Positions 19,004-22,114 of a DNA stretch of 64,000 bases are shown here, piece by piece; positions within the stretch are counted from its first letter, which is position 1; each line of letters opens with the position of its first letter. The notes below the pieces were generated by a model. That model did not search any database. It saw only the letters and a list, made by a program, of their open reading frames with translations, and was not told the origin of the DNA. The stretch covers positions 62,001 through 126,000 of the forward strand of contig DATNQI010000096.1 of assembly GCA_036704125.1 (NCBI GenBank), read 5' to 3'. A program made the position numbers and the translations under genes. The stretch is from Pantanalinema sp. GTDB taxonomy: Bacteria; Cyanobacteriota; Sericytochromatia; S15B-MN24; UBA4093.

Positions 19004-19031
19004 ACGGCCCCCCTCGCAGGAGGGGGGCCGT
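19004..19031 (-). terminator. Terminator downstream of alaS
   Basis: An 11-bp perfect stem ACGGCCCCCCT/AGGGGGGCCGT with a 6-nt loop starts 16 nt after the alaS stop. Only three T residues follow on the minus strand. Confidence 0.75.
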
Positions 19032-19046: not shown

Positions 19047-21641
19047 CTACGCGTTGACCGGGATCTGCTGGGCGACGAGTGCGCTGACCTGGGCGATCGC
19101 CTCGTTCAGCTTGCCGGGCTCGCCGCCGCCGCCCTGGGCGATCTGGGGCTTGCCGCCCCCCTTGCCGCCCACCAGGCCCATCAGGGAGCCGATGAGCTTG
19201 CCGGCATGGGCGCCTTCCTTGACCAGGTCGTCCGAGGCCGCCGCCACCATGGCGAGCTTGCCGTCCTCGACCGAGCCCAGGACCACCACCCCCGACTTGA
19301 GCTTGTCGCGCAGGTGCTCGACCGCGCCCTTGATCGCGTCGGGGGCCATGTTGGGCACCACCGCGGCGATCAGGCGGTAGGATCCCACGGCGATCGCGCC
19401 TTCCAGGAGCGATTCGGTCTGGGCGATCGCAAGGCGGCTCTTGAGGGCCCTGACCTCGGCCTCGGTGGCCTTGACCCTGTCCTGGAGCTTCTCGATGCGC
19501 TCGGGCAGATCCTCGGCCGAGGCCTTGAGCAGGGTGCCGGCCGCGGCGATCGCCTCGGCCTGGCTCCGGAAGTAGGCGAGGGCTGCGGTGCCCGCCACCG
19601 CGGTGACGCGGCGGATACCCGCGGCGATCCCCTCCTCGCGCACGACCTTGAAGGTGCCGATGGTGCCGGTGGCGCGCACGTGGGTGCCGCCGCACAGCTC
19701 CTTGCTGAAGCCGGGCACGTCGATGACGCGGACCGTCTCGCCGTACTTCTCGCCGAACAGCGCCATGGCCCCGGATGCCTGGGCGTCGGCGAGGCTCATC
19801 TCGATGTGGGCGACCGTGCGGTTGGCGAAGACCTCGGCGTTGACGAGATCCTCGACCTTCGCGATCTCCTCGGGGGTCATGGCCCGGGCGAAGGTGAAGT
19901 CGAAGCGAAGCTCCTCGGGGCCGACAAGCGAGCCCGCCTGGTTGACCTGGGGGCCGAGCACCTGCTTGAGGGCCGCGTGCAGGAGGTGGGTCGCGGTGTG
20001 GTGCCGCATGGTCGCCTCGCGCAGGGCGAGATCCACCTTGGCCTCGACGCGATCGCCGACCGACGGCGCCTCGCTGCCCGCCTCGAGCAGGTGAACGATG
20101 GTCGGGCCCATCTTCTGGGTGTCGACGACCCGGGTCGTGCCGAGCACGCCCTGGTCGCCCACCTGGCCGCCCGATTCGGCGTAGAAGGGGGTATGGTCGA
20201 GCACCACCCCGGTGCGGCCGCTCTTGTCGGTGAAGACCTCGCGGACCTCGGCCGACTCCTGGGTGGAGGCGTAGCCCTTGAAGGGGGTGGCCTCCTTGGT
20301 CTTGAGATCCACGGCCGAGAAGGTCACGCCCGCCTCCTCGCGCGCCTTGCGGGCCCGCTCGCGCTGCAGCTCCATGGCCGCGTGGAAGCCGGTCTCGTCG
20401 ACCGAGAAGCCCTTCTCGGCGGCGAGCTCGACGGTCAGCTCGAACGGGAAGCCGTAGGTGTCGTACAGCTCGAAGGCGGTCTCGCCGGGGATGACCTTGT
20501 TGTCGGCCCCGAAGGTGTCGAAGGCGTTGGCCAAGAGCTGCGAGCCGCGGTCGATGGTCTGGCTGAAGCGGGTCTCCTCGGCCGAGAGGCTTTGGAGGAT
20601 GAACTCCTTCTGGGCGCTCAGCTCGGGGTAGTAGGCGTAGTGCGAGATGATCAGCTCGCCGAGCTCCGCGAGGAAGGGGCGCTGCATGCCGAGCAGCTTG
20701 GCGTGGCGGATGGCCCGGCGCATGATGCGGCGCAGGACGTAGCCGCGGCCCTCGTTGGAGGGGACGACCCCGTCGCCGATCAGGAAGACCGCGCCGCGGA
20801 TGTGGTCGGCGATGACCTTGAGCGAGACGTCCTTCTCCTTGTCGGCGCCGTAGGTGACGCCTGCGAGCTCGGCCGCCTTGAGGATGATGGGCTTGACCAG
20901 GTCGGTGTCGTAGTTGGTCGGCACCCCCTGGATCACCGAGGCGATGCGCTCGAGGCCCATGCCGGTGTCGATGTTCTGGGCGGGCAGGGGAGTCAGGGTG
21001 CCGGTTTCGTCGCGGTTGTACTGCATGAAGACCAGGTTCCAGATCTCGAGGTAGCGGTCGTCGTCCTCGCCGAGGATGGCATCCGGGTTGCCGTTGCCGG
21101 CGCTCACGCCCTGGTCGAAGTAGATCTCCGAGCACGGGCCGCAGGGGCCGGTGGGGCCCGCCGCCCAGAAGTTGTCCTCCTCGCCCATGCGCACGATGCG
21201 ATCGGCGGGCACGCCGATCGTGTCGCGCCAGATGGCGAGCGCCTCGTCGTCGGTCTCGAACACCGAGACCCAGAGCCGGTCCTTGGGGAGCGCGAGGTCG
21301 ACGGTGAGGAACTCCCAGGCGTAGGCGATCGCCTCGGCCTTGAAGTAGTCGCCGAACGAGAAGTTGCCGAGCATCTGGAAGAAGGTGTGGTGCCGTGCGG
21401 TGCGCCCCACGTTGTCCAGGTCGGTGGTGCGGAAGCACTTCTGCACCGTCACCGCCTTGGGCGGGTTGGGGGCGGCCTCGACGCCCATGAAGATGGGCTT
21501 GAACTGCAGCATGCCTGCCGTGGTCAGCAGGACGGTCGGGTCGTTCTTGGGCACCAGCGAGGAGCTGGGCAGGTGCGCGTGGCCCTTGCGCTTGAAGAAT
21601 TCGATGTACTTGGCCCGGATCTCGTGACCGCTGAGTGACAA
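19047..21641 (-). CDS. alaS: Alanyl-tRNA synthetase
   Basis: Charges tRNA-Ala. The 864 aa are close to the family's usual 870-880. The N-terminal class II catalytic core opens with YIEFFKRKGHAHLPSSSLVP, followed by the tRNA-recognition domain. The editing domain holds the zinc-binding pair HHTATHLLH and CGGTHVRATG. The C-terminal C-Ala domain ends in a Gly-rich stretch. The start is TTG with AAGGGA 7 nt upstream. A -10 box and a large hairpin region precede it, so it is probably transcribed separately from the YtxH genes. Confidence 0.96.
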   Translation of the reverse strand: MSLSGHEIRAKYIEFFKRKGHAHLPSSSLVPKNDPTVLLTTAGMLQFKPIFMGVEAAPNPPKAVTVQKCFRTTDLDNVGRTARHHTFFQMLGNFSFGDYFKAEAIAYAWEFLTVDLALPKDRLWVSVFETDDEALAIWRDTIGVPADRIVRMGEEDNFWAAGPTGPCGPCSEIYFDQGVSAGNGNPDAILGEDDDRYLEIWNLVFMQYNRDETGTLTPLPAQNIDTGMGLERIASVIQGVPTNYDTDLVKPIILKAAELAGVTYGADKEKDVSLKVIADHIRGAVFLIGDGVVPSNEGRGYVLRRIMRRAIRHAKLLGMQRPFLAELGELIISHYAYYPELSAQKEFILQSLSAEETRFSQTIDRGSQLLANAFDTFGADNKVIPGETAFELYDTYGFPFELTVELAAEKGFSVDETGFHAAMELQRERARKAREEAGVTFSAVDLKTKEATPFKGYASTQESAEVREVFTDKSGRTGVVLDHTPFYAESGGQVGDQGVLGTTRVVDTQKMGPTIVHLLEAGSEAPSVGDRVEAKVDLALREATMRHHTATHLLHAALKQVLGPQVNQAGSLVGPEELRFDFTFARAMTPEEIAKVEDLVNAEVFANRTVAHIEMSLADAQASGAMALFGEKYGETVRVIDVPGFSKELCGGTHVRATGTIGTFKVVREEGIAAGIRRVTAVAGTAALAYFRSQAEAIAAAGTLLKASAEDLPERIEKLQDRVKATEAEVRALKSRLAIAQTESLLEGAIAVGSYRLIAAVVPNMAPDAIKGAVEHLRDKLKSGVVVLGSVEDGKLAMVAAASDDLVKEGAHAGKLIGSLMGLVGGKGGGKPQIAQGGGGEPGKLNEAIAQVSALVAQQIPVNA

Positions 21642-21686
21642 GGCGATGTCCCTTTCTCGAAACGTGGGCTGGAGACTTTTCCTACG

Positions 21687-21692
21687 ATTCTA
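21687..21692 (-). promoter_or_regulatory. Extended -10 promoter of alaS
   Basis: Minus-strand TGCTAGAAT, a TG-n extended -10 box, lies about 45 nt upstream of the TTG start. No good -35 box is seen; the region where it should lie is the upstream terminator stem. Confidence 0.5.
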
Positions 21693-21699
21693 GCACGAC

Positions 21700-21732
21700 G
21701 AAGCCGCCCCGAGCGTGGCCCGGGGCGGCTTC
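21700..21732 (-). terminator. GC-rich hairpin upstream of alaS
   Basis: A perfect 12-bp stem GAAGCCGCCCCG/CGGGGCGGCTTC with a 9-nt loop. It lies between the YtxH genes and alaS and probably ends the YtxH transcript, but lacks a T run. Confidence 0.55.
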
Positions 21733-21747
21733 AAGAGGAACGGGGCG

Positions 21748-21825
21748 AGAGCATCCAACAAAACCAGGCATTTGTCGCCCCGGGCCGCAGGGGGCGGCTT
21801 GAAGGATATTTTTGTTAGACGCTCT
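21748..21825 (-). repeat. Nested inverted repeat in the 3' UTR after ytxH
   Basis: A 16-nt outer pair (21748-21763 with 21810-21825) encloses an inner CGCCCC/GGGGCG stem (21776-21781 with 21791-21796). The two outer mismatches become G-U wobbles only in minus-strand RNA, so the structure would be fully paired in the YtxH transcript. The outer arm includes two bases of the ytxH stop codon. See findings. Confidence 0.6.
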
Positions 21826-22096
21826 AGTCTTCCTTCTCGCGGTAGAGCTGGATGATGTTGGTCGGGCGCTTGCGCCTGGAAGCGATGAGATCGGGCGCGT
21901 TCCTGAGGACCTGGCGGCCCCTGAGGCGCAGGTCCTCCATCGAGGGGAACTGCTCGCTGATCTCGCCGGCCATCCGCTTGAGCTTCTTGCGGGTGTCCTC
22001 GCCCGACTTTGGCGCGAGCAAGAGGCCCGCGGCGGTGCCGAGGGCGGTCCCGATCAGGGCGGTGGCGTAGAACGTGAGGTTGCGCTTCGCGCTCAT
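21824..22096 (-). CDS. YtxH-domain small membrane protein
   Basis: A 90-aa protein with one N-terminal hydrophobic segment (FYATALIGTALGTAAGLLLA) followed by the YtxH signature APKSGEDTRKKLKRM and a basic, soluble tail. Members of this family are linked to general stress and to phage shock-like envelope responses, but no biochemical role is established. It is the second of two adjacent YtxH genes, 18 nt after the first. Together they form a short operon from the promoter near 22.5 kb. Confidence 0.8.
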   Translation of the reverse strand: MSAKRNLTFYATALIGTALGTAAGLLLAPKSGEDTRKKLKRMAGEISEQFPSMEDLRLRGRQVLRNAPDLIASRRKRPTNIIQLYREKED

Positions 22097-22114
22097 GGGA
22101 GTCTCCTGGGCTGT

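Follow-up and report, generated by a model that had tools for sequence, protein, structure and literature searches.

The intergenic region between ytxH and alaS in a Pantanalinema genome carries two hairpins in a row, and the question that it raises is whether these structures serve the regulation of alaS or came to lie there for some other reason. An earlier note on this DNA had described a nested 16-nt inverted repeat that holds an inner GC stem and starts at the ytxH stop codon, followed by a second hairpin just before the alaS -10 box. It had proposed selection on RNA, with an attenuator or a stabiliser of the 3' end as possible roles. The features concerned are given below, with positions counted in the window, that is, the whole stretch of 64,000 nucleotides that was analysed.

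21824..22096, minus strand: ytxH (PF12732), 90 aa, with the element at its 3' end
21824..21826, minus strand: ytxH stop codon TAG, with T from the flank and AG from the element
21748..21825, minus strand, 5' to 3' from 21825 to 21748: very probable mobile element copy of 78 nt (repeat family; absent at the orthologous site)
21810..21825, minus strand: left 16-nt terminal arm, AGAGCGTCTAACAAAA (arm pairing, covariation)
21784..21798, minus strand: inner stem P2, GCCGC / GCGGC in this copy (fold, covariation)
21748..21763, minus strand: right 16-nt terminal arm, TTTTGTTGGATGCTCT (arm pairing, covariation)
21700..21732, minus strand: second hairpin, most likely the ytxH terminator and separate from the element (fold, comparison with the relative G001)
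21687..21692, minus strand: TAGAAT (ATTCTA on the plus strand), likely the alaS -10 box, aligned with TAAAAT in G001
19047..21641, minus strand: alaS (PF01411), the downstream gene

The described geometry is real. The two terminal arms (21748-21763 and 21810-21825, 16 nt each) are 88% complementary, and their two mismatches, A·C on the plus strand, become G·U pairs on the minus strand only, just as the note had it. The inner GC stem is present as described. The first arm begins within the ytxH stop codon, in which T (21826) is flanking sequence and AG (21825-21824) is part of the element. The segment 21690-21830, taken as minus strand, folds at -69.4 kcal/mol, compared with a mean of -48.8 for its shuffled versions (z -5.7; none of 200 shuffles was equal); the plus strand, too, is more stable than when shuffled, but to a lesser degree (z -3.6; 0 of 200). 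The second hairpin has 15 bp with one G·U pair and a 3-nt loop (arms 21700-21714 and 21718-21732, 93% complementary), its basal 12 bp are perfect, and TAGAAT follows it. Nine perfect stems of at least 10 bp with loops of 3-8 nt occur in the window, and this might suggest that two unrelated hairpins simply arose by chance in a GC-rich intergenic region. However, the fold surpasses all 200 shuffles, and the repeat family and the covariation described below refute a chance origin of the first structure, so that the probability of this reading is close to nil.

With Rfam covariance models, no family, T-box included, reached the gathering score in 21500-22100, in agreement with the note, which had seen no T-box features; nothing reached that score at four loci with other copies of the element either. 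A simple terminator scan listed one terminator-like site, 21780-21766, which lies inside the element, against 0.5 expected.

The first structure recurs throughout the genome (3.51 Mb in 102 contigs, an assembly from which a partner element may be missing). A DNA search with 141 bases of this region gave at least 41 matches (40 of 86 candidates scored), nearly all of which cover query positions 5-83 or part of them, that is, the first structure alone. A covariance model built from 39 copies then detected at least 63 copies (E<=4.6e-7) among the 150 candidates that were scored out of 3426. These counts are lower bounds, as part of the candidates was scored in each search. All 63 copies were confirmed on fetched loci as 63 distinct places, and weaker and partial copies come in addition. 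Their length is 77-83 nt in 57 of the 63 and 92-101 nt in the other six, most of which have additional sequence following the left arm. In copy L068, another hairpin stands in place of the usual inner one. The flanks of the 63 copies are mostly unrelated, and the GC content of the element is 0.564 compared to 0.674 for the surrounding loci. Two pairs of copies in the same orientation lie only 61 and 38 bases apart (L003:1504-1723 and L091:1504-1700). Half copies, consisting of the left arm plus GTTCC, stand directly after stop codons at L089:2467-2533 and L090:2469-2547; at L089 the place of the other half is taken by a terminator-like hairpin that ends in TTTTGTT.

Beyond its own genome, the element had no match at E<=0.001 in 58 further genomes when stricter filters were used, and laxer filters gave one hit each (E 0.02-0.03) in two of 17 other members of the class. 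The hit in G001, a genome of the same family (L177:1501-1565; G001:C4:10787-10851), is a palindrome of 63 bases whose ends, GAGCGGCTAAC...GTTAGGCGCTC, are similar to those of the element and whose core is different; it is possibly a distant relative of the element. A search for an end pattern, which also picked up this palindrome, had matches in two of 59 genomes, the element's own and G001. One copy (L007) gave no match among 72,556 plasmid records or 50,697 phage records, and the viral contigs contained no instance of an exact 18-base pattern. Within the genomes and records searched, the element thus appears to be private to this lineage. No report of it was found in the open-licence papers searched, though one under another name may exist.

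AlaS was matched in all 18 genomes of the class, the element's own included, some of the matches being partial; among the 18 fetched loci, which reach up to 1.5 kb past the match and in several cases less, YtxH stands beside AlaS only in the element's own genome and in its closest relative, G001. There, the gene order is the same and the element is absent. When the 78 nt are removed, the intergenic region of the window aligns with that of G001 through the hairpin and the -10 box, whereas the alignment breaks when they are left in (MAFFT, judged by eye). As G001 lacks the element and the two regions align once the 78 nt are cut out, the element was most likely inserted at the 3' end of ytxH. 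A locus-specific attenuator or T-box was therefore rejected, given the absence of the element from the orthologous site and the lack of any Rfam match at the gathering score. At a second site, which holds two tandem copies, G001 has no model hit and aligns poorly; a stretch there, TTAACAAAACTT, is similar to a portion of the left arm, either by chance or as a remnant. At a third site (L008), only one flank is conserved in G001.

A second kind of empty site was found within the genome. A GC-rich repeat stands at the left flank of 15 of the 63 copies, 14 times in direct orientation, and an element-free form of it is present at C26:10397-10454; judged by eye, the element has two insertion points in this repeat. 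This GC-rich repeat is itself a second dispersed hairpin repeat, CCCCGCCCCCCGGTGGGGCGGGG...GGGGTGGGGGGAT (L034:1472-1610, L072:1470-1680, L176:898-955), and in several places an inverted copy of itself follows. The borders of the insert fall at AGAGC/GCTCT. As for a target-site duplication, similarity between the flanks was above chance in 16 of 81 correlated tests of length and offset (p<0.02) with no one length prominent, the best test giving 16 of 48 against 7.3 expected.

The position of the copies relative to genes, which were predicted by a simple rule based on reading frames and GC3, was compared for 58 of them, the remaining five of the 63 lying inside called reading frames. Both neighbouring genes have the direction of the element (sense) for 22 copies and the opposite direction (antisense) for 14; the neighbours are convergent for another 14 and divergent for six, and two copies have one flank only. 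Among the 35 genes that read into the left side of the element and end within 150 nt of it, nine share exactly two bases with it (T|AG) and three share one; among 28 right-side gene ends, seven overlap the element by one or two bases (both lists include the five copies inside reading frames). A T directly precedes the element in 31 of the 63 copies. In these cases the ends of the element thus complete stop codons, as at ytxH.

The pairing of the arms has been maintained among the copies. In the 39-copy alignment, 93.7% of the cells are paired, compared to 37-48% when the 3' arm is slid. Both sides have changed in 11 of the 23 stem pairs, a value as high being reached in none of 500 shuffles, and double-changed cells number 35 versus 10.3 +/- 2.8 in shuffles (0 of 500 reaching it), the copies having been treated without correction for relatedness. 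A candidate TGTT/AACA helix in the loop displays no covariation. Covariation, which the earlier note had proposed to look for in relatives, is present here among dispersed copies. On one strand, G·T and T·G pairs together number 71 and A·C and C·A pairs 16 (58 copies after dropping five with indels; column 6 was excluded, 48 of the 58 copies having G·T there). The ratio is 53:14 without compound copies (44 copies) and 26:5 after thinning of similar ones (20 copies), even though the polarity is not seen in every column (5:4 in column 7 and 0:2 in column 2). Of the two strands, the given one has the better fold in 44 of the 63 copies with RNA parameters and in 45 with DNA parameters.

Such observations could be taken to mean that the hairpin acts in cis as RNA, protecting, processing or ending the ytxH transcript or attenuating alaS, and that copies are kept for that purpose. 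The strong minus-strand fold, the stem covariation, the placement at gene 3' ends (22 of 58 copies between both-sense genes and 14 of 58 between convergent ones) and the single terminator-like site at 21780-21766 are all consistent with this notion, and ERIC and REP sequences are, in the accounts cited, reported or supposed to affect mRNA stability (PMC2229807, PMC3733652). However, the element is missing from the ytxH-alaS site of the closest relative, and the G·T:A·C ratio is similar whatever the direction of the neighbouring genes: 24:6 where both are in sense, 15:5 where both are antisense, 16:3 where they converge and 6:1 where they diverge. We therefore consider a cis-acting RNA unlikely. 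As the polarity does not follow gene direction, selection is to be placed at movement, or at parental copies, and not at the mRNA of each site. What is selected thus seems to be a single-stranded form that takes part in movement, and not alaS regulation; this form might be RNA or single-stranded DNA, both being equally compatible with the polarity data. Of the earlier proposal of selection on RNA, the part that stands is the folded single strand, which is borne out by the covariation and the G·T polarity across dispersed copies; it does not extend to orthologous alaS leaders. The attenuator itself is not supported: the element is absent at the relative's site, lies at other genes elsewhere, and shows a similar polarity beside antisense genes.

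A role at the 3' end, which the note had also suggested, is supported for the second hairpin. In G001, a hairpin of different sequence occupies the same place as 21700-21732, as is expected of a terminator; it has UUUU at the 3' end of its stem. Most likely, then, 21700-21732 is the intrinsic terminator of ytxH, even though no clear U-rich tract follows its stem (the tail reads GUCGUGCUAG) and the simple terminator scan, whose sole listed site is the one inside the element, does not list it. The inserted element might, in addition, stabilise the ytxH mRNA. At the other end of alaS, a perfect 12-bp GC hairpin lies just past the stop codon (19004-19031 of the window), with no clear U tract on the alaS strand; it is probably the alaS terminator. 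The segment 28189-28284 holds the longest of the nine perfect hairpins in the window, with 26 bp, and, six bases further on, a perfect 15-bp hairpin.

The question of what moves the element was approached by searching the genome for candidate enzymes. The hairpins are dispersed mostly between convergent or co-directional genes, as the source consulted reports for REP sequences (PMC3733652), and the element might accordingly be of the REP type, with a RAYT (Y1) transposase as its mover. However, Y1_Tnp (PF01797) has no match in the genome at E<=0.01, and the element is twice as long as a REP, which is a palindrome of 20-40 bp with an unpaired GTAG or CGTC tag at one end. No such unpaired tag is present, CGTC being found inside the left arm. 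A REP sequence is thus an improbable identity for this element.

A single integron attC site, or the remnant of a cassette array, was also considered. In the copy alignment, the inverted ends read RYYYAAC...GTTRRRY around a hairpin, which is the form of the attC consensus, and the core contains TCAAGCCG, as in some attC sites. Integrases cut attC at the G^TT of the R' box, but the borders of the element, AGAGC/GCTCT, fall outside that point. In addition, AAC/GTT is not invariant, some copies having the compensated GAC/GTC; the copies are dispersed and mostly single; and no integron integrase above the TIGR02249 family cut-off was found in the genome, where three places have weaker tyrosine-recombinase matches, of a sort that all 14 control genomes have as well. 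The element differs from attC in all these respects, and we regard this identity as highly improbable. In attC, extrahelical bases of the folded bottom strand are described as being recognised by IntI (PMC3053210).

A long element with the same ends was not recognised among 94 end-like sites, nearly all of which belong to copies. Those outside known copies are C21:15517, C24:15416, C33:5694 and C89:9868, and three of them (C21, C24 and C89; L089, L040 and L090) resemble partial copies. The 15 proteins encoded between four of the 11 copy pairs that lie 1-7.3 kb apart, and around the single ends at C21 and C89, include no transposase domain; four of the 15 have no Pfam match at all. A sub-threshold tyrosine-recombinase match is located about 1.5 kb from one of the longer copies (C40:14706 / C40:13111; L087 / L080, G000:C40:13111-15512) and is a possible lead to the moving enzyme.

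The repeat family, its presence here versus its absence at the relative's site, the maintained pairing and the strand polarity are directly observed, and it is very probable that 21748-21825 is a copy of a mobile repeat that is non-autonomous and MITE/ERIC-like, measures 77-101 nt, ends in inverted arms of 16 nt and has been amplified to at least 63 copies in this lineage. Most likely, one such copy entered the 3' end of ytxH, upstream of both the existing terminator (21700-21732) and the alaS promoter, and now supplies the AG of the ytxH stop codon. We further envisage that an enzyme provided in trans would move the element, with the folded or inverted ends as its recognition signal; that the G·T bias of one strand would reflect the single-stranded DNA or RNA form used in movement; and that the placement at gene 3' ends would mostly reflect tolerance of insertions there. 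From the tolerance of G·T pairs and the avoidance of A·C pairs on one strand, whatever the direction of transcription at the site, we tentatively raise the possibility that the element moves via a folded single-stranded intermediate (DNA or RNA). Since neither a Y1 transposase nor an integron integrase was found in the genome, its mover would then belong to a type that has so far not been connected with repeats like this one. What looked like an alaS regulator thereby becomes a well-sampled natural experiment, with at least 63 copies, covarying stems and a strand bias independent of gene orientation, which opens a direct way to study whether repeats of this sort are mobile as folded single strands. 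A further lesson is one of caution, as RNA-like covariation in a leader can stem from a mobile repeat.

How does this element compare with known repeats? Its dispersed hairpins lie mostly between co-directional and convergent genes, as described in the literature cited above for REP/BIME sequences of the GTAG and CGTC superfamilies, and its compound copies, in which the inverted GC-rich repeat follows, look BIME-like, although it is longer, carries no unpaired end tag and has no Y1 transposase match in its genome. ERIC (RU-1) and Correia (NEMIS) sequences are presented in the source cited as small palindromic repeats, roughly 100-200 bp in size, that adopt long stem-loop folds once transcribed (PMC2229807). 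The element belongs to the same class of small folding palindromic repeats, but is shorter (77-101 nt), and the TA ends and duplications reported for those families are not established for it. Prokaryotic MITEs are characterised, in the accounts consulted, by a size below 500 bp, inverted ends of 4-30 bp, many intergenic copies and a stable stem-loop (PMC10969869, PMC5896051); AT-richness is given as typical and not required, and target duplications are reported to wane with age. The element is likewise short, multi-copy and dispersed over 63 places, has inverted ends of 16 nt, and its insertion is seen against empty sites, namely the ytxH-alaS region of G001 and the element-free GC-rich repeat. 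It resembles MITEs such as QMITE2 of Coxiella burnetii in size, intergenic copies, stem-loop and insertion at gene 3' ends, the last of which is also reported for Coxiella QMITEs (PMC5896051). It differs from MITEs in that no related IS or clear target duplication was found, in being only relatively AT-rich (GC 0.564 in loci of 0.674), and in the strand-polar pairing of its stem. The element is, in sum, a lineage-specific family of a known kind that lies here beside an ordinary terminator, and its polarity, independent of gene direction, is its one unusual property.
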